Made by a program: the position numbers and the translations under genes. 64,000 nt of DNA, from positions 372,001 through 436,000 of the forward strand of contig NZ_FOKW01000003.1 of assembly GCF_900112205.1 (NCBI RefSeq), given 5' to 3'. How positions within the stretch are numbered: the stretch's first letter is position 1; each line of letters begins with the position of its first letter. Positions 840 to 19,010 of this stretch are shown here, one piece after another. Source of the stretch: Natronobacterium haloterrestre. GTDB lineage: Archaea > Halobacteriota > Halobacteria > Halobacteriales > Natrialbaceae. The notes under the pieces are model-generated. The model saw only the letters and a list, made by a program, of their open reading frames with translations, had not been told where the DNA came from and did not search any database.

Positions 840-2071
840 CGGAGCGTACGTGCGTCGTCTACGGCGCGAGCGAACTGGTCGTCGGGCCGCCGTCCGGGGA
901 CGGGGACGACAGCCCCCTCGAGACCCTCGAGAACGGGGCCTTCGCCGCGGTCGACGGCGAGGTCGTCGCCGTCGGCGAGACGGCCGAAATCCTCCGTGAG
1001 CATCCGCCGGAGAACGCCGACGTCGCGGTCGACGCCGACGGGAACGCCGTCGTCCCCGGCTTCGTCGATCCCCACACCCACGCCGTCTTCGCCGGCGACC
1101 GCTCGGACGAGTTCGAGGCCAAACTCCGCGGGAAGAGCTACCAGGAGATCCTCGAGGACGGCGGGGGGATCCTGCGGACCGTTCGGGCCACCCGCGAGGC
1201 GGGCGACGACGAACTCCTCGAGAACCTGCTCGGCCACCTCGACGCCATGCTCGCGCGGGGAACGACGACCGTCGAGGTCAAGTCAGGCTACGGCCTCGAC
1301 ACCGAGACCGAACTGCGCCTGCTCGAGGCGATCGATCGGGCCGACGACGCCCACCCCGTCGACCTCGTCCCGACGTTCCTGGGCGCTCACGCGGTCCCGG
1401 AGGGCGAGGAAACCGACGACTACGTCGACCGCGTCGTCGAGGAACAGCTCCCGACGGTCGAATCCCAGGGGATCGCCGAGTTCTGCGACGTCTTCTGCGA
1501 GGAGGGCGTCTTCGACGTCGAGCAGTCCCGGCGGGTCCTCGAAGCGGGCCGCGAGGCCGGACTGACGCCGAAGGTCCACGCCGAGGAGTTCACGCGCCTG
1601 GGCGGGGCGGAACTGGCGGCCGACCTCGGGGCCGCGAGCGCCGACCACCTCCTGCACGCGACCGACGAGGACGTCGAGGCGATGCGCGCGGCGGACGTGG
1701 TCCCCGTCCTGCTGCCGGGGACGGCGTTCGGCCTCGGTGCCGACTACGCCGACGCGCGGGCGTTCCTCGAGGCCGGCTGGCCGGTCGCGGTCGCGACGGA
1801 CTTCAACCCGAACTGCCACTCACGGAGCATGGGGTTCGTCCAGACGCTGTCCTGCGTCGAGATGGGCATGACGCCCGCGGAGGCGCTGCGCGCGTCGACC
1901 AGCGCGGCCGCCCGAGCGCTCGACCGCGACGACGGCACCGGGACGCTGGGAGTCGGCGCGCCGGCCGACGCGGTCGTCCTCGAGGCGCCGTCGTACGCCC
2001 ACATCGCCTACCGGTTCGACACGCCGGCCGTCGATACGGTCCTGAAGGGCGGCGAGGTGGTTCGATCGTGA
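836..2071 (+). CDS. hutI: Imidazolonepropionase
   Basis: Amidohydrolase that opens the imidazolone ring of 4-imidazolone-5-propanoate to give N-formimidoyl-glutamate, the third step of histidine catabolism, in the cytoplasm. The protein has 411 residues, a normal length. The metal-binding HTH is at His80 and His82 ([18 protein letters not shown] context), HAEEF follows in the middle, and ATDFNPN supplies the metal-ligand Asp322. The ATG at 836 overlaps the hutG stop by four bases; a longer frame to 743 exists but the overlap and the MTERTC start fit an operon. Its own stop overlaps the hutH GTG. Nothing looks damaged. Confidence 0.95.
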
Positions 2072-3720
2072 GCGCGGTCGAACTCGACGGCGAGAGGCTG
2101 ACGCCCGAGGACGTCGTCGCGGTCGCCCGGGAGGACGCAAGGGTCGTCGTGCCCGAACCGGCCCGCGAGCGGGTGCGAGCGTCCCGTCGGCGCGTCGAGG
2201 ACGTCGTCGACGGCGAGGAGGCCGTCTACGGGCTCAACACCGGCTTCGGCGAACTCGTCGACGAGCGGATCCCGGCCGAGGACCTCGAGGCGCTCCAGCA
2301 CAACCTGCTTCGCAGCCACGCCGCGGGAGCTGGCCGCGAACTCGAGCGGGAGGAGGTCCGCGCGATGATGGTCGCCCGGATCAACGCCCTCGTGAAGGGC
2401 TACTCCGGGATCCGCGAGGACGTGATCGACCACCTGGTCGCGTGCTGTAACGAGGGCCTCCACCCGGTCGTCAAGTCCCGCGGCAGCCTCGGCGCGAGCG
2501 GCGACCTCGCGCCGCTGGCTCATATGGCGCTGGTGCTGGTCGGGGAGGGCGAGGCGGTCGTCGAACGCGGCGAGCGCACGGAGCGTCTCCCCGGCGACGA
2601 GGCGCTTTCCGAGATCGGCCTCGAGCCGCTGTCGCTGGCCCCGAAGGAGGGGCTCGCGCTCATCAACGGTACCCAGCTGACGGTCGGGCTGGCCGCGCTC
2701 GCGGTCGTCGACGGCGAACGGCTCGTCCGTGCGGCCGACGCCGCGGGCGCGCTGACGACCGAAACGAGCCTCGGCACGACGGCGACCTCCGATCCGGCGA
2801 TCCACGAGGTGCGACCACACACGGGACAGGCGGACAGCGCCGCGGCGATTCGCCGGCTCACCGCGGGGAGCGAGATCGTCGAGGCCCACCGGAACTGCGA
2901 TCGCGTCCAGGACGCCTACTCGCTGCGGTGTCTCCCGCAGGTCCACGGCGCGGTCCGGGACGCCCTCGAGCACCTCCGGGAGGCCGTCGCCGTCGAACTC
3001 AACAGCGCGACGGACAACCCGCTCGTGTTCCCCGCCGAGCGCGTCGCCGACCCCGGCCGCGCGTCGGGGACCGACCAGGCGTCGGTGCTGTCGGGCGGGA
3101 ACTTCCACGGCGCGCCGCTTGCCCTGCGCCTCGAGTACGTCCGCCTCGCGCTGACGGACCTGGCCGCCATCTCGGAGCGGCGAATCGACCGGCTGCTGAA
3201 CCCGAACCTGCAGGAGCCCCACCTCCCGCCGTTCCTGGCGGCCGACAGCGGCGTCGAGTCGGGGTTCATGATCGCCCAGTACACCGCCGCCGCCTTGCTC
3301 AACGAGATTCGATCGATCGACGCGGCCTCGAGCGACAACACGCCGGTCAGCGGCGGTCAGGAGGACCACGTCAGCATGAGTTCCCAGTCCGCACTCGGCG
3401 TGCGGACGGCCCTGGAGAACGCGACGTGGATCGTCGCGGCCGAACTCGTCTGTGCGACCGAAGCCGCCGAGTACGTCGACGACGCCTTCGACGCCGCGAC
3501 GGCGGCGAGCGACTCGACCGAGGTCGAAGACGGAGACGGGAACGGATCGGGGCTGTCACTCGGCGACGGAACCAACGCCGTCCGGAACCTCGTGCGGGAG
3601 GTCGTCCCACCCCTTACCGAGACGGGTGATCGCCCGGTGCATACCGACGTCGAGAGCGTCGTCGCGCTGCTCGAGGACGGACTCGTCGACGCGGCGGTCG
3701 ATGACGCACTCGAGTCGTAG
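2068..3720 (+). CDS. hutH: Histidine ammonia-lyase
   Basis: Converts L-histidine to trans-urocanate and ammonia, the first step of the hut pathway. The protein has 550 residues. The Ala143-Ser144-Gly145 triad within GSLGASGDLAPL cyclises to the MIO electrophile, and the conserved YGLNTGFG motif is near residue 54. Start is GTG overlapping the hutI stop (GTGA). The C-terminal part after about residue 470 carries an acidic low-complexity insertion (EDGDGNGSG region), common in halophilic proteins, before the conserved end. A short T-run follows the stop. hutU is not in the window and is presumably upstream of hutG. Confidence 0.96.
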   Translation: MSAVELDGERLTPEDVVAVAREDARVVVPEPARERVRASRRRVEDVVDGEEAVYGLNTGFGELVDERIPAEDLEALQHNLLRSHAAGAGRELEREEVRAMMVARINALVKGYSGIREDVIDHLVACCNEGLHPVVKSRGSLGASGDLAPLAHMALVLVGEGEAVVERGERTERLPGDEALSEIGLEPLSLAPKEGLALINGTQLTVGLAALAVVDGERLVRAADAAGALTTETSLGTTATSDPAIHEVRPHTGQADSAAAIRRLTAGSEIVEAHRNCDRVQDAYSLRCLPQVHGAVRDALEHLREAVAVELNSATDNPLVFPAERVADPGRASGTDQASVLSGGNFHGAPLALRLEYVRLALTDLAAISERRIDRLLNPNLQEPHLPPFLAADSGVESGFMIAQYTAAALLNEIRSIDAASSDNTPVSGGQEDHVSMSSQSALGVRTALENATWIVAAELVCATEAAEYVDDAFDAATAASDSTEVEDGDGNGSGLSLGDGTNAVRNLVREVVPPLTETGDRPVHTDVESVVALLEDGLVDAAVDDALES

Positions 3721-3723
3721 GAT

Positions 3724-3740
3724 CCCTTTTTCTCGTTCTT
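3724..3740 (+). terminator. T-rich terminator after hutH
   Basis: Immediately after the hutH TAG the + strand carries CCCTTTTTCTCGTTCTT. A pyrimidine/T-run just past a stop in otherwise GC-rich DNA is the usual archaeal terminator form. No strong hairpin is needed or seen. Confidence 0.5.
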
Positions 3741-4038
3741 CGCGGCAGGGCGCCCGCCGACTTCACTCCGGGTGCGATCGCCGTGACGAACGATCCGGCT
3801 CACACGTGTCTATCGGACAAGGTTATGCCTCTCCAGACCGTAGCCGCCGCTGCCTTCGGATATCCGGAGGCGTCGGGTGCGAGGAAATCCATTCGAATCC
3901 CCACCACCTACCGTCCTCGCGACCCGACCTACCACTCCTCTACAGCAATGAATGATTACGCACCCGATGTGACAAGTGTAGCTCCTAAAGAGTTAGGGGT
4001 AGCCAGGGGGCACACGGAACGGGTCCTCGAGCGGCCGC
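3741..4038. other. Convergent intergenic region
   Basis: This stretch separates hutH (+) from the Bat-type regulator (-). Open frames here are Arg/Pro/Ser-rich and lack acidic haloarchaeal composition, so I call no gene. A patch near 3955-4000 is less GC-rich than its surroundings and may hold the terminator of the minus-strand gene. I see no RNA gene. Confidence 0.5.
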
Positions 4039-12611: not shown

Positions 12612-13628
12612 ATGGTACGCGTACTCTCCGACGAGGACGTCGCCTCGGTCCTCGACCTCGAGGACCTGCTTCCCGTCGTCGCAGACGCCTTCCGGAAGAC
12701 GGAGGCCGACGAGGTCGAACGGCCGGAACGCCCCCACTACCCGATCGGGGCGGGACTCGAGTCCGACTCGAGTACGAGCGAGACGGCGGAGCCGACCGGC
12801 ACCGGACTCTGTATGCCCGCGTACGTTCACGGGGCCGACTACGCCGCGACGAAGCTCGTGACGGTCGTCGAGGACAACCCGGAACGGGGCCTGCCGACCG
12901 TCACCGCACAGATCGCGCTGGCCGACGCCGAAACGGGTCAGCCGGTCGGCTACCTCGCCGGCAACCGGATCACGGGCGCACGGACCGGCTGTATCGGCGG
13001 ACTGGCGGCCCGCGAACTCGCGCCCGAACCCGACGAGCAGGACACGCTCGACGTGGCCGTGATCGGCGCGGGCACGCAGGCCCGCTGGCAGACCCGTGCG
13101 ATCGCCGCGGCGACCGACGCCGACCTCGAGTCGGTCCGGGTCTACTCCCCGAGCGACTCGCGGTTCGACTGCGCCGCGGATCTCGAGGCCGAACTCGACG
13201 CGTCCGTGGACGCCGTCTCGTCGCCCGCCGCCGCCGTCGAGGACGCGTCGATCGTCGTTACCGCGACGACGAGCACGGAGCCGGTGTTCCCGGGCGACGC
13301 CCTGGAACCGAACGCGCTCGTGATCGCCGTCGGCGCGTACACGCCGGAGATGCGCGAACTGGACGCGACGACCGTCGAACGCGCCGAGCGGGTCGTCGCG
13401 GACGTCCCCTCGGAGGCCCTCGAGACCGGCGACTTGCGGGAGTTCCCGGCCCTCGAGGACGGGATCGAGTCGCTCGGTGCCGTTCTATCGGGCACCGAGG
13501 GGTCGGACCGGGGAGACGGGATCGTCGTCGTGGAAAGCGTCGGCTCCGCGGTGCTAGACGCCGCGGCTGCGTCCTTCGTCTTCGATCGCGCGGCCGAGCG
13601 CGGTGTCGGGACGACGGTCCCGCTTTGA
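12612..13628 (+). CDS. Ornithine cyclodeaminase / mu-crystallin family protein
   Basis: NAD(P)-dependent enzyme of 338 residues. It begins VRVLSDEDVASVLDLEDLLP, has the substrate lobe with AATKLVTVVEDNPERGLPTV, the RITGARTGCIGGLAA helix, then a Rossmann fold with AVIGAGTQARWQTRAI. Archaeal members include alanine dehydrogenases as well as ornithine cyclodeaminases, so the substrate is open. The gene is free-standing. Length and motifs are intact. Confidence 0.88.
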   Translation: MVRVLSDEDVASVLDLEDLLPVVADAFRKTEADEVERPERPHYPIGAGLESDSSTSETAEPTGTGLCMPAYVHGADYAATKLVTVVEDNPERGLPTVTAQIALADAETGQPVGYLAGNRITGARTGCIGGLAARELAPEPDEQDTLDVAVIGAGTQARWQTRAIAAATDADLESVRVYSPSDSRFDCAADLEAELDASVDAVSSPAAAVEDASIVVTATTSTEPVFPGDALEPNALVIAVGAYTPEMRELDATTVERAERVVADVPSEALETGDLREFPALEDGIESLGAVLSGTEGSDRGDGIVVVESVGSAVLDAAAASFVFDRAAERGVGTTVPL

Positions 13629-13801
13629 CCGACGACCGTCGCCCGAGCCGCGAGCGTCGAGCGTCGAACCGGCCACGACACTAAAGTAACCTGTCGGCCA
13701 AGTGCGACGAACCGTCAGTAGATCTTTCAAACGGGCTGTCTGTATATGGAGACGATGAACACCGATCGCGTTCGCGACGCGCGACTGGACCGCAGGCGAA
13801 G

Positions 13802-15949
13802 ATGCTGGCGCGCGAGCGAGCGCTCGAACAGCGCATCGGGGGGAGCGCGGTCGTGACGTCCCGCACCGTTCCGATCGTCGACCGCGTCACGGACGCGTTC
13901 TTCGCGCTCGACACCGACTTCCGGTTTACGTACCTCAACGAGCGAGCCGAGACCCTTCTGAAACGGTCTCGAGAGGACCTCATCGGCCGCGTCATGTGGG
14001 ACGAGTTTCCGCAAACGGTCGAGACGCAGTTCCCGGACGGGTTCCATCGGGCGATGGACGAACAGGTTCCGGTCTCGTTCGAAATCTACCATGCGCGCCT
14101 GGAGACCTGGTTCGAGGCCCGGGCCTACCCCTCCGAGACGGGGCTGTCGGTGTACATGCGCGATGTCACCGAGCGCAAGCAACAGGAGACCACCATCGCC
14201 CAGCACGCGGCCGTCATCGAGGCGATCAACGACGGCGTCGTTACGCTCGACCGGAACCGGGAGATCGTCTCGGTCAACGGCGCGATGGAGCGACTGCTCG
14301 GCCGCGACCGGGAGGCCCTGGTCGGCGAACACGTCGAGGTCGTCCCCGAACTCGCTGGCATCGACGACGAGGACGCAGTCGAGATGGGACGAGCTATCGC
14401 CGACGTGGACGTTGGCAACGCCGACAAACGGCAACTCGAGGCGACGATCACCGACGCCGACGGCGTCGACCGGATGGTCGAGATCAGGTTCGTTCCGATC
14501 GAGGACGACGCGGCGACGATCGCCGGCGTCCTCCGCGACATCACCGACCAGCACGAGTACGAACGGGTGGCCGCCTCGCTGCACGAGATCACCCGCTGGC
14601 TGCTCGAGTCCGACGACCCCGAGGAGATCTGTGCGATCGCCGTCCACTCGGGCAGCGACCTGCTCGATCTGCCGATCAGCGGGATCTGGCTCCTCGAGGA
14701 CGAACACGGCTATCTCGAGCCCGTCGCTGGCACGGCGGGGGCGTACGAGGAGTTCGGCGGCCTCCCCCGGTTCAACCCCGGCGAGGGACTCGTCTGGAAC
14801 GTCTTCGAGGCCGGCGAGGTCGAGCGGTTCGACGATCTCGAGTCCAACGAGGAAACCTACAACCCCGAGACACCCCTTCGCTCGGAGATCATCGCGCCGA
14901 TCGGTACTCACGGCGTGCTCATGACCGGCGCGCTCGAGCCCGGCCAGTTCGACGAGACCGACGTCGAACTGCTCTCGACGCTGGCGGAGAACATCCGTGC
15001 CGCGCTCGACCGGGCCGACCGCGAGCGGATCCTGCGGGAGCGCACCGAGGCCCTCGAGCGCCAGACCGAACGGCTCGAGGGGGTCGCCAACGTCCTCTCG
15101 AACGACCTGAAACAGCAACTCGAGACGGTCGCCGAGCGACTCGAGGACGACGACGCCGACGAACTGGGCTGGGAGTTCCCGCTCGCAGAGGACTCCGTCG
15201 AGACGACGCTCGACCGCGCCGAGCGACTGGTCGACGACGTCCGCGAGTTCGCCCGCAACGCCTCGGCGGTCGGCACCCGGAGCCGCGTCAGGCTCGACCG
15301 AGCCGTCGAAGCGGCTGCCAGGACCTCCCGGCTCGACGAGTCGAACGTGACCGTCGAACGCCGTGCCACCGTCCGGGCCGACGCCGACCGCCTCGTGAAC
15401 CTGCTGGAGACGGCGTTCGACGATGCAGCGGCTCGCGACGGCGTCTCCCCGGGCGACCCCGGAGACGAGACGGCGGACGTAACGGTCCGGGTGGGTCTTC
15501 TCGGGTTCGACGATCCCGGCCGGTCCCGCGGCTTTTACCTCCTCGACGACGCGGCTGCCTCGCCGGAGACCGCTCGAGATCGGCTGCTGGCGTCCCCGGA
15601 CGGGACGGGAAGCGGAGCGGGGGCCGCTGACGGGACACCCGACACCGGAACCGGCGCGATCGACGGTCTCGGACTCGCGCTCGTCCGCGCGATCGCCGAA
15701 GCCCACGGCTGGGAACTGACGGTCGAGACCGTCGAAGGCGACGGGACGAGCGAGTGCGGTGTACTCGACCACGAACCCAACTCCGACCCTGACCACGACT
15801 CGGACGAACTCGCGAACAGAACCCGGATCGAAATTCGGGACGTAACTACCCTCGAACTCGAGGGCAGCGATCGTCACAACGGGGACGAAGACGGCAAGCG
15901 GCAGCGAGACGGTCTTCCACGGCCCGGAGCGGGTCCGGGCGGTCCCTGA
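13802..15949 (+). CDS. PAS-PAS-GAF sensor with degenerate histidine kinase core
   Basis: A 715-residue cytoplasmic sensor: PAS 1 (about 25-125, DAFFALDTDFRFTYLNERAE), PAS 2 (about 135-260), GAF (about 265-410), a dimerisation helix region (about 420-495) and an HATPase-like fold (about 500-660). The catalytic parts are altered. The H-box reads LSNDLKQQL, with Asn434 at the phospho-acceptor His site. The N-box reads LLETAFDDAA, with Asp541 for the usual Asn. The G1 box reads DDAAAS (from Asp582) instead of DDGPGI. The G2 box GLGLALVRAIAEAHGW is kept. It is probably not an autokinase and may act as a scaffold or ligand-binding partner. No alternative in-frame start lies upstream. Confidence 0.86.
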   Translation: MLARERALEQRIGGSAVVTSRTVPIVDRVTDAFFALDTDFRFTYLNERAETLLKRSREDLIGRVMWDEFPQTVETQFPDGFHRAMDEQVPVSFEIYHARLETWFEARAYPSETGLSVYMRDVTERKQQETTIAQHAAVIEAINDGVVTLDRNREIVSVNGAMERLLGRDREALVGEHVEVVPELAGIDDEDAVEMGRAIADVDVGNADKRQLEATITDADGVDRMVEIRFVPIEDDAATIAGVLRDITDQHEYERVAASLHEITRWLLESDDPEEICAIAVHSGSDLLDLPISGIWLLEDEHGYLEPVAGTAGAYEEFGGLPRFNPGEGLVWNVFEAGEVERFDDLESNEETYNPETPLRSEIIAPIGTHGVLMTGALEPGQFDETDVELLSTLAENIRAALDRADRERILRERTEALERQTERLEGVANVLSNDLKQQLETVAERLEDDDADELGWEFPLAEDSVETTLDRAERLVDDVREFARNASAVGTRSRVRLDRAVEAAARTSRLDESNVTVERRATVRADADRLVNLLETAFDDAAARDGVSPGDPGDETADVTVRVGLLGFDDPGRSRGFYLLDDAAASPETARDRLLASPDGTGSGAGAADGTPDTGTGAIDGLGLALVRAIAEAHGWELTVETVEGDGTSECGVLDHEPNSDPDHDSDELANRTRIEIRDVTTLELEGSDRHNGDEDGKRQRDGLPRPGAGPGGP

Positions 15950-15970: not shown

Positions 15971-16050
15971 CCTGTCTCGTCCTGTCTCGTCCTGTCTCGT
16001 CCCGTTTCGACCCGTTTCGACCCGTTTCGACCCGTTTCGTCCTGTTTCGC
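15971..16050. repeat. Eight tandem 10-bp units
   Basis: Eight contiguous decamers: three CCTGTCTCGT, three CCCGTTTCGA, then CCCGTTTCGT and CCTGTTTCGC. It fills the gap between two convergent genes (sensor stop 15949, response regulator stop 16139). The three subtypes are grouped in blocks, as expected from slippage or unequal exchange. The T-rich + strand could also serve as terminator. Confidence 0.93.
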
Positions 16051-16138: not shown

Positions 16139-16726
16139 TTACTCCTCGGGAACCGGATCGGCGGCGATGTCGCGACAGAGCTGACGGTACTTCCCCTCCT
16201 CGAGCAGTTCCGAGGTCGTCTCCGTGACGTGGGCCCGCAGCGCCGCGAGCCGGTCCTCGAGTTCGGCGTACTCCCGGCTCGACTCGAGTTCGGCCTCGGA
16301 CTTCTGGGCGTCGAGCAGGGCCTTCTTCGACGCGAGCGCGAAGAACTCCCGAAGTTGGTCGTCGTAGGACGAACGCAGCAGTAGCTGATCGACGATCCGC
16401 AACAGCTCTTCTTTCGAGACGGGTTTGACGAGATAGTCGTCGAACCCCATGCCGACGATGTCGAAATCGGGTTCGATCGCGGTCACCATCGCAACGTAGC
16501 AATCGAGATCGTGCTCGCGGATCGTCTCGAGCACGGTATCCCCCGACAGCCCCGGCATCCGGCGGTCTAAGAGAACCACGTCGATCGACTCGTCGATCGC
16601 CGCGAGCGCGTCGTCGCCGTCGTAGGCCGTCCGGACGTCGTACTCGCTCTCGAGCCACGCGGCATAGAGATTAGCGAGGTCGGGCTCGTCTTCGACGATC
16701 AGTACGGACGGGGTGTCTGTGGCCAT
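16139..16726 (-). CDS. Response regulator with HalX output domain
   Basis: A 195-residue cytoplasmic regulator. The receiver domain (1-115) has acidic pair Glu12/Asp13 (IVEDEPD), phospho-acceptor Asp54 (VVLLDRRMPG) and Lys101 (YLVKPVSKEE). The C-terminal HalX domain (about 120-190) is a helical coiled region (LREFFALASKKALLDAQKSEAEL) typical of haloarchaea, with no known DNA-binding motif. I start at the ATG at 16726; 13 upstream codons look unrelated. It is convergent with the degenerate kinase, so the pair may be related, but that kinase cannot phosphorylate it by the normal route. Confidence 0.92.
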   Translation of the reverse strand: MATDTPSVLIVEDEPDLANLYAAWLESEYDVRTAYDGDDALAAIDESIDVVLLDRRMPGLSGDTVLETIREHDLDCYVAMVTAIEPDFDIVGMGFDDYLVKPVSKEELLRIVDQLLLRSSYDDQLREFFALASKKALLDAQKSEAELESSREYAELEDRLAALRAHVTETTSELLEEGKYRQLCRDIAADPVPEE

Positions 16727-16853: not shown

Positions 16854-19010
16854 CTACGCGAGTTCGTCCTCGATCGTCGACCGCAACTCGTCGATCGTCC
16901 CGGCATCCGTCTCGAGCAGTTCCGTTCCGTCCTCGGCCTCGAGCGCGAGCGCCCCGTCGTCGGTGGCGGAGCCGAGTGAGACGACGGGAGCGACGCCGTC
17001 GAACGCCTCGCGGACGGCCGCCGGCTCCGCGGTCTGGATCAGCACGCGGCCGGGCTGTTCGTGGAACAAGGCACCGGCAACCTCGCCCTCGGAAACCGGG
17101 AGCGTCGCCTCGAGGCCGGCCTCCTCGGTGACCATCTCGGCGAGCGAGACCGCGAGCCCGCCGTGACTGACGTCGTGGGTGGCGCGGGTCGCGTCGTCGT
17201 CCGCGACCTCGGCGATCGTCTCGACGAGGGCGGCCGGCTCCGCCGGCAGTTCGGGGAAGGCGTCGGTCCCGTCGAAGCGGGCGAGGTACTCCGAGCCGCC
17301 CAGGTCGAACGCCCCGGACTCGAGGCCGCGGTCGCCGACCAGCAGCAGTTCCGCGTCGGCCTCGGGCGCGAGCGACAGCGGCGGTGCGTCGTAACCGGCC
17401 TTCGCGCCGACCAGCGCGAGCGTCGGCGTCGGGGGGATCGGCCCCGCCGCGGAGTCGTTGTACAGCGAGACGTTGCCGCCCACGACCGGCGTCTCGAGGG
17501 TGGCACACATGTCGGCGAGGCCGTCGACGATCCCCTCGAAGCCGCCGTAAACCTCGGGCTTCTCGGGGTTGCCGCCGTTGAGACAGTCGACCGCGGCCAG
17601 CGGCGTCGCGCCCTTGGCCGCCACGTTGGTCGCGTTCTCGAGTGCGACGGCGCGTGCACCCTCGTAGGGTGCCGTGTCGGTCCAGTTGGGGGCAGCGCCG
17701 GACGATATCGCGAGTCCCTGCTCGGCTTCTCTGACCGCGATGAGCGCCGCGTCGTCGCCCGGACCCACGCTCGTGCGGACGCCGACCTCGTGATCGTACT
17801 GGCGGTAGACCCACCGCTTCGAGGCCGTGTTCGGGCTCGCGACGACGGTCTCGAACGCCTCCTCGAGGTCCACCTCGGGAAGATCAGTCTCGGGCTGCTC
17901 GACGTCGACGCTCTCGAGGTCGTTCATCGGCGCACCCTCGCCGAGGAACTCGGCGTCGACGTCGACGACCGTCTCACCATCAAAGGTCGCGACGTAGTTG
18001 CCCTCGGTGACCTCGCCGATCACGGAGCAGCCGAGGTCGAACCGCTCGGCGATCTCGCGGACGCGCTCGACGTTCTCGGGGGCGACCTCGTAGCACATCC
18101 GCTCCTGGGACTCGGCGAGCAGTATCTCGAGGGCGTTCATGTTGGGCTCGCGCTGGTGGACGCGCTCGAGTTCGATCTCGGCCCCCAGACCGCCCTTGGC
18201 GACCAGTTCGCTCGACGCACCGCCCAGGCCGGCCGCCCCGAGGTCGCGCGCGGACTCGATCAGGTCCTCCTCGATCAGTCGCTCGTTGGCCTCGATCAGC
18301 AGTTTCTCCGCGTAGGGGTCGCCGACCTGGACCGCGGGCCGGTCTTCGGTTTCGGCGTCCTCCGAGAGGTCCTCGCTGGCGAAGGAAGCACCCCCGAGGC
18401 CGTCCCGGCCGGTCGCGTTGCCCACGAGCACGAGTTTGTTCCCCGGTTCCTGGGCCTCGGCGGTGACGAGCCGTTCCTCGCTTGTCAGCCCGACGCAGGC
18501 GACGTTGACGAGCGGATTGCCCTCGTAGTCGGGATGGAAGTCGACGCTGCCCGCGACGGTGGGGACGCCGATGCAGTTGCCGTAGTGGCTGATCCCCTCG
18601 ACGACGCCCTCGAAGAGGTACTTCGAGTGTTCGCGGTCGAACTCGCCGAAGTACAGCGAGTCCGCCAGCGCGATCGGGTACGCGCCCATCGAGAGCGTGT
18701 CCCGGACGATGCCGCCGACGCCCGTGGCCGCGCCGTCGAACGGGTCCACGTAGGAAGGATGGTTGTGGCTCTCGATCCCTATCGTCACGTACGTCCCGTC
18801 GTCCCCGGGCAGCGAGACGACCGCCGCGTCGTCGCCCGGCCCGATCACGACCTCCTCGCCCTCGCTCTCGAACGCGGACAGCAGGGGCCTCGAGGAGCGG
18901 TACGCACAGTGTTCGCTCCAGAGGTTCTCGAACAGCGCCGCCTCCGCCGGAGTCGGTTCCCGGCCCAGCTCCTCGACGACGAGTTCGCGGTCCGAATCGG
19001 CAAGACTCAT
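16854..19010 (-). CDS. purL: Phosphoribosylformylglycinamidine synthase subunit PurL
   Basis: ATP-dependent subunit of FGAM synthase, fourth step of purine synthesis, working with PurQ and PurS, which are not in the window. The protein has 718 residues, the small-PurL length. Catalytic His34 is in [16 protein letters not shown]; the first ATP/Mg loop has [12 protein letters not shown] and [20 protein letters not shown]; the second half repeats the fold with [12 protein letters not shown] promoter-like element lies 35-46 bases before the ATG. The stop is convergent with nothing close; the response regulator follows on the same strand. Confidence 0.96.

Follow-up and report, generated by a model that had tools for sequence, protein, structure and literature searches.

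The locus considered here comprises a pseudo-histidine kinase gene, a convergent gene for a receiver-HalX response regulator, and one flanking gene on either side of this pair, all within the window, i.e. the whole stretch of 64,000 nt of DNA that was analysed (Table 1). The names ornithine cyclodeaminase-like and purL-like for the flanking genes come from sequence recognition and are presumptive. Direct reading of the translation confirms that the frame of the kinase homologue is open from end to end, as the first-pass annotation had reported. Translation probably starts at the GTG codon of V18, which would give a product of 698 rather than 715 aa. The two PAS domains and the GAF domain are strong Pfam matches. 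HATPase_c reaches 18.9 bits against a cut-off of 26.4, and there is no Pfam match to HisKA in the protein. A minus-strand ORF of 716 aa (13727–15877) runs antisense to the whole gene; it is put down to high GC content and was rejected, since the plus frame is the one with the PAS and GAF matches. The interval separating the pseudokinase gene from the convergent HalX gene holds a 10-bp tandem repeat (TCGTCCCGTT; 7.3 copies, 15977–16049).

Table 1. Features of the pseudokinase locus, with positions in the window (residue numbers count from the first ATG)
Feature	Coordinates	Strand	Remarks
Ornithine cyclodeaminase-like gene (presumed), upstream, co-directional	12612..13628	+	Synteny; present at many orthologous loci, not at most Natrinema loci
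Pseudo-histidine kinase gene	13802..15949	+	715 aa from first ATG; coordinates include stop
Likely true start, GTG (V18)	13853..13855	+	698 aa product; VTxRSVP start in most homologues
PAS domain 1, residues 24–127	13871..14182	+	Pfam PAS_4; dN/dS 0.04, lowest of the protein
PAS domain 2, residues 134–255	14201..14566	+	Pfam PAS_9; model
GAF domain, residues 270–403	14609..15010	+	Pfam GAF_2; fold matches GAF structures, Z up to 20.6
C277 in GAF, sole conserved Cys	14630..14632	+	Invariant, 97/97; Ala in 8/10 canonical sister kinases
DHp-like helical hairpin, residues 405–495, phospho-accepting His absent	15014..15286	+	Models; structural match to kinase cores
H-box position, Asn434 for His	15101..15103	+	N/S/T/G/E/R/D/K/A, never His, in 97 sequences
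CA (ATPase-like) domain remnant, residues 496–682	15287..15847	+	HATPase_c below cut-off; fold kept in model
N-box position, Asp541 for Asn	15422..15424	+	Asn retained in just 3/97 sequences
N-box His replaced by Arg545	15434..15436	+	Arg in 58/60 clade members; His in 10/10 canonical sisters
G1 box DDAAAS, residues 582–587	15545..15562	+	D582 kept in 90/97; Gly584 to Ala in 87/97
G2 box GLGLAL, residues 622–627, retained	15665..15682	+	Direct reading; alignment
Terminator-like hairpin spanning pseudokinase stop codon	15937..15955	+	Consensus match only
Receiver-HalX response regulator, convergent	16139..16726	-	Pfam Response_reg and HalX; E12, D13, D54, T82, K101
purL-like gene (presumed), conserved next neighbour	16854..19010	-	Synteny

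The first-pass annotation described a histidine kinase homologue that had lost three catalytic boxes, with Asn434 in place of the H-box His, Asp541 in place of the N-box Asn and DDAAAS as the G1 box, while the G2 box, sensor domains and helices remained. All three replacements are exact when read directly from the sequence, and the retained parts are equally apparent in the GLGLAL motif, the Pfam matches and the helical hairpin kept in the models. The list of losses was incomplete, as comparison with ten canonical sister kinases shows that R437, N537, H545, G586 and G620/T621 at the start of the G2 box have also been replaced. Canonical relatives read VVSHDLRNPL around the H box, LENLFRNAVEH around the N box and DDGPGI in the G1 box, whereas the pseudokinase reads VLSNDLKQQL, LETAFDDAAAR and DDAAAS. 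Alignment of orthologues, which had been proposed as a test of whether the losses are conserved, covered 97 sequences (96 distinct orthologues and the query), and the H-box His is found in 0/97. Chance can be set aside, since all the orthologues examined share this loss. Of the G1 glycines, G584 is retained in 6/97 and G586 in 1/97, and at H+4 the Asn or Thr customary for phosphatase activity is likewise missing, except in 6/97. The H-box His, the N-box Asn and the G1 glycine are all present in the ten canonical relatives outside the clade, and the other histidine kinases read in the query genome have the H-box His in 26/26 cases.

AlphaFold2, with 52 aligned sequences as input, gave a model of the whole protein with a pLDDT of 83, in which a helix continues from the GAF domain into the DHp hairpin. 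The DHp–CA half (pLDDT 79.5) was folded separately, since GAF and PAS matches filled the full-length fold search. Its model matches solved kinase cores, with DivL (4q20_B; rmsd 4.3, 209 residues aligned) and the kinase HprS as joint best matches at Z 13.2 each, and RetS structures are also among the matches. Profile matches of the pseudokinase to PDB kinases were found as well. The match of the modelled core to DivL is suggestive only, its Z score being nearly tied with those of many kinases. Of the features of an active HisKA-type kinase, the DHp–CA fold is thus kept, and the H-box His and proper N and G1 boxes are missing.

An orthologue, normally single-copy and matching over most of its length, is present in 121 of 125 Natrialbaceae genomes, 110 of the 111 good ones, and in 29 of 29 genera. 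Beyond the family but within the order, nine more genomes from three family-level groups carry it. Among the taxa that carry it are Natrinema, Natrialba, Natronorubrum, Natronococcus, Halovivax, Haloarchaeobius, Halorubellus, Halostella and Salinarchaeum. A tenth order-level match, the weakest (G359, L073), was rejected, being non-syntenic and an ordinary kinase with a fused receiver. The order of the locus, with the pseudokinase facing HalX, then purL, and PHP and asnB farther out, is kept at 38–48 % identity, and orthology is therefore confirmed. At the same locus, G181 (L100, 7308–8580) encodes a 424-aa orthologue that has lost both PAS domains and kept GAF, DHp and CA, likewise with no His.

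In a maximum-likelihood tree, drawn with a midpoint root, the proteins without the His form one side of a branch supported at 100/100, apart from the canonical relatives with intact boxes. A single loss of the H-box His is the simplest reading of this topology, not proof of it. Three sequences from Salinarchaeum and sister genomes (L070, L071, L206) have no H-box His, yet retain the N-box Asn and DDG in the G1 box. Their residues suggest either a loss of the His ahead of the other losses or fewer losses on this branch, and the state they display may be an intermediate one.

Median dN/dS across 37 disjoint close pairs is 0.15 for the pseudokinase overall, rising from PAS1 (Table 1) through GAF (0.09), PAS2 (0.14) and DHp (0.16) to CA (0.26). 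The GAF domain is the best conserved in the family alignment (conservation 0.82). In pairs at 55–65 % overall identity, GAF is 76 % identical vs 49 % for CA; CA identity is below GAF identity in 99.8 % of pairs, with a smaller gap in a canonical control kinase. Judged by these values the CA domain is relaxed but not free, because T537, R545 and A584 are largely fixed replacement states in the H-less clade.

The high dN/dS of the CA domain could also be taken as the mark of a decaying gene heading to loss, as could a few individual genomes. The G053 copy (L054, about 2052–3914) is the sole split orthologue, a frameshift dividing it between two overlapping frames although its genome is otherwise good, the G120 copy is N-terminally truncated, and G021 and G055 have no orthologue. 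Decay is nevertheless rejected as extremely improbable on conservation, dN/dS and core distribution. The lost constraint and disrupted frames of a pseudogene are not what is seen: dN/dS is 0.15, and the frame is open in nearly all of the 121 genomes; the replacement residues are fixed, and the gene was already conserved before at least three families diverged. The pattern named beforehand as speaking for decay, premature stops in the present gene and normal boxes in its orthologues, is the reverse of what was found: no orthologue has the His, and almost all have open frames.

A kinase-like core, lost catalytic residues and a maintained gene, the marks of a pseudo-histidine kinase, are thus found together. 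The sequences show that an ancestral cytoplasmic PAS-PAS-GAF kinase lost its His, both N-box Asn residues and the G1 glycines, that the losses became fixed, and that the product has been held under purifying selection as a core gene. The proposal in the first-pass annotation that an intact protein is kept as a non-kinase sensor gains support from the missing His in orthologues, the purifying selection and the core status in the family.

In histidine kinases the first Asp of the G1 box, here D582, contacts adenine, and the N-box Asn is a Mg2+ ligand. From its residues the pseudokinase is predicted to act neither as a kinase nor as a phosphatase. Some residual nucleotide binding would still be possible through the retained G1 Asp and G2 glycines; given the degenerate boxes, ATP binding is predicted to be weak or none. 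An enzyme of a different kind can also be conceived, in which ATP would be bound and hydrolysed and a non-histidine target phosphorylated, as in the MA_type 2 kinases RdmS and MsmS. H-box-less archaeal kinases that bind and hydrolyse ATP do exist (PMC11784639), and the G1 Asp and G2 box are retained in the pseudokinase. However, very few members retain the N-box Asn, the N-box His or either G1 glycine, and constraint on the protein is weakest in the CA domain, which makes such an enzyme improbable.

The HalX protein facing the pseudokinase is intact, as first described, with its five receiver residues in place (Table 1), and the phospho-accepting D54 is present in 47/47 sequences covering that position. 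The HalX/pseudokinase/purL neighbourhood is retained beyond Natrialbaceae, as far as Halostella and Salinarchaeum. Within 6 kb of the pseudokinase, a close HalX orthologue is found in 87 of 121 genomes; nine more, eight of them from a single genus, have it elsewhere in the genome. The other 25 are without a close HalX orthologue, and some of these carry a divergent HalX at the locus. At loci without HalX the pseudokinase still adjoins purL, and in HalX-less pairs (L185–L196, L013–L014, L181–L058 and L176–L082) its dN/dS is in the same range as in the rest. Two good genomes keep HalX and purL with the pseudokinase absent. In genus g24 (G111; L111, L112), HalX stays with purL and the pseudokinase is found elsewhere in the genome.

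HalX as an obligatory partner is rejected on this co-occurrence. HalX may be one partner of the pseudokinase; it cannot be the only one, because in many pseudokinase-bearing genomes HalX is missing or has moved, and it cannot be the sole reason for which the pseudokinase is kept. The suggestion that the two work together is therefore weakly borne out, by the age of the neighbourhood, and is set against this loss or separation of HalX. A stricter form of this pairing would follow DivL, with the dead DHp–CA module specifically binding the phosphorylated form of the facing HalX, so that information would flow from receiver to pseudokinase. The conserved convergent order and the invariant D54 agree with such binding, as does DivL itself, a joint best structural match that has neither kinase nor phosphatase activity, binds ATP weakly and binds DivK~P (PMC4211667). 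However, the genes are unlinked in the eight genomes of one genus, 25 more have no close HalX orthologue, pseudokinase dN/dS in the HalX-less pairs is in the usual range, and inertia can preserve convergent neighbours. This specific pairing is possible but, on the whole, doubtful.

The partner could instead be an active histidine kinase, with which the pseudokinase would form a heterodimer that raises or lowers kinase output in the style of RocA-CovS, ChrS-HrrS or RetS-GacS. The dimerization hairpin and signalling helix are kept in the models, precedents exist (PMC7028121, PMC9491836), and RetS is among the structure matches. Against this, three active kinases of the query genome, out of 26, were tested and are far too patchy for a universal partner: counted at a strict threshold (E<=1e-140), which the pseudokinase passes in nearly all genomes, they have relatives in 7/71, 3/61 and 3/61 genomes of the family. 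A heterodimer of this kind is tentatively retained, although it seems rather unlikely. A near-universal pseudokinase alongside three patchy active kinases in the same genome is the inverse of the usual expectation.

As to the signal, C277 is accompanied by an invariant H261 and by H282 and H370, each present in 92/97 sequences of the clade alignment; of these, H261 and H370 are shared with some of the canonical sisters. That C277 and the nearby His residues make up a redox, metal or haem site is a guess from their conservation. In Methanosarcina, the sensors RdmS and MsmS have been described as thiol- and haem-based.

The explanation considered probable, with good confidence, is that the locus encodes a pseudo-histidine kinase, peculiar to one group of families of haloarchaea, that serves as a cytoplasmic sensor and acts by protein binding without phosphotransfer. 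The PAS and GAF domains would detect some cytoplasmic cue, which may be redox, a metal or haem perceived at C277, the Cys specific to the clade, and the long signalling helix would relay the state of the sensor to the dead DHp–CA module. Without phosphotransfer, this module would change its binding to a partner, which may be a receiver, with HalX as the first candidate, or a paired active histidine kinase. A bolder version has the protein as a core haloarchaeal redox, metal or haem sensor at the GAF Cys/His residues and as a binding-only hub on several receivers or kinases, with the active kinases turning over fast; taken as a whole, that version is unlikely.

Nearly every Natrialbaceae species would, on the preferred explanation of a binding-only sensor, be a natural test of kinase core function without catalysis. 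Pseudo-histidine kinases are known case by case and are mainly bacterial. In the literature searched, mostly outside subscription journals, no description of haloarchaeal pseudokinases of this family was found. The function of HalX receivers is undocumented (PMC5847659), and the pseudokinase offers a concrete protein for asking what they do. The same archaeal census lists ‘nonenzymatic HK-like proteins’, which likewise combine PAS/GAF sensors with an incomplete kinase core, but with the opposite loss, the His being kept and the HATPase domain absent (PMC5847659). Ordinary haloarchaeal PAS-GAF kinases, such as those of Halopenitus (L207, L208), have a related sensor and core, with intact boxes and no synteny.

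Several characterized systems share parts of this makeup. RdmS and MsmS of Methanosarcina acetivorans (PMC11784639, PMC6944256) are, by description, archaeal sensors with multiple PAS/GAF domains and an H-box-less kinase module, as is the pseudokinase. RdmS has no autokinase activity, as predicted here; redox-dependent autophosphorylation, once reported, was later revised by the same authors (PMC11784639, PMC6944256). Unlike the pseudokinase, whose N and G1 boxes are also degenerate and which belongs to another lineage, RdmS binds and hydrolyses ATP. In DivL of Caulobacter (PMC4211667), PAS sensors likewise sit on a dead DHp–CA core in which the His is replaced, by Tyr; DivL is, however, bacterial, about 20 % identical in the aligned core, and regulates CckA. 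NifL of Azotobacter likewise joins a pair of PAS domains to a kinase-like module (H and GHKL) and acts by direct binding rather than as a kinase, yet it keeps a conserved H motif and has its partner NifA in the same operon (PMC8063818). RocA of group A Streptococcus (PMC7028121) and the ChrS pseudokinase of C. glutamicum (PMC9491836) are pseudo-histidine kinases too, which act via an active kinase; they differ in that the partner is known, that RocA is a membrane protein and that the ChrS variant is a product of experimental evolution in the laboratory. By analogy, the pseudokinase would most resemble DivL, RocA and NifL in its mode of action, and the MA_type 2 kinases in its architecture.
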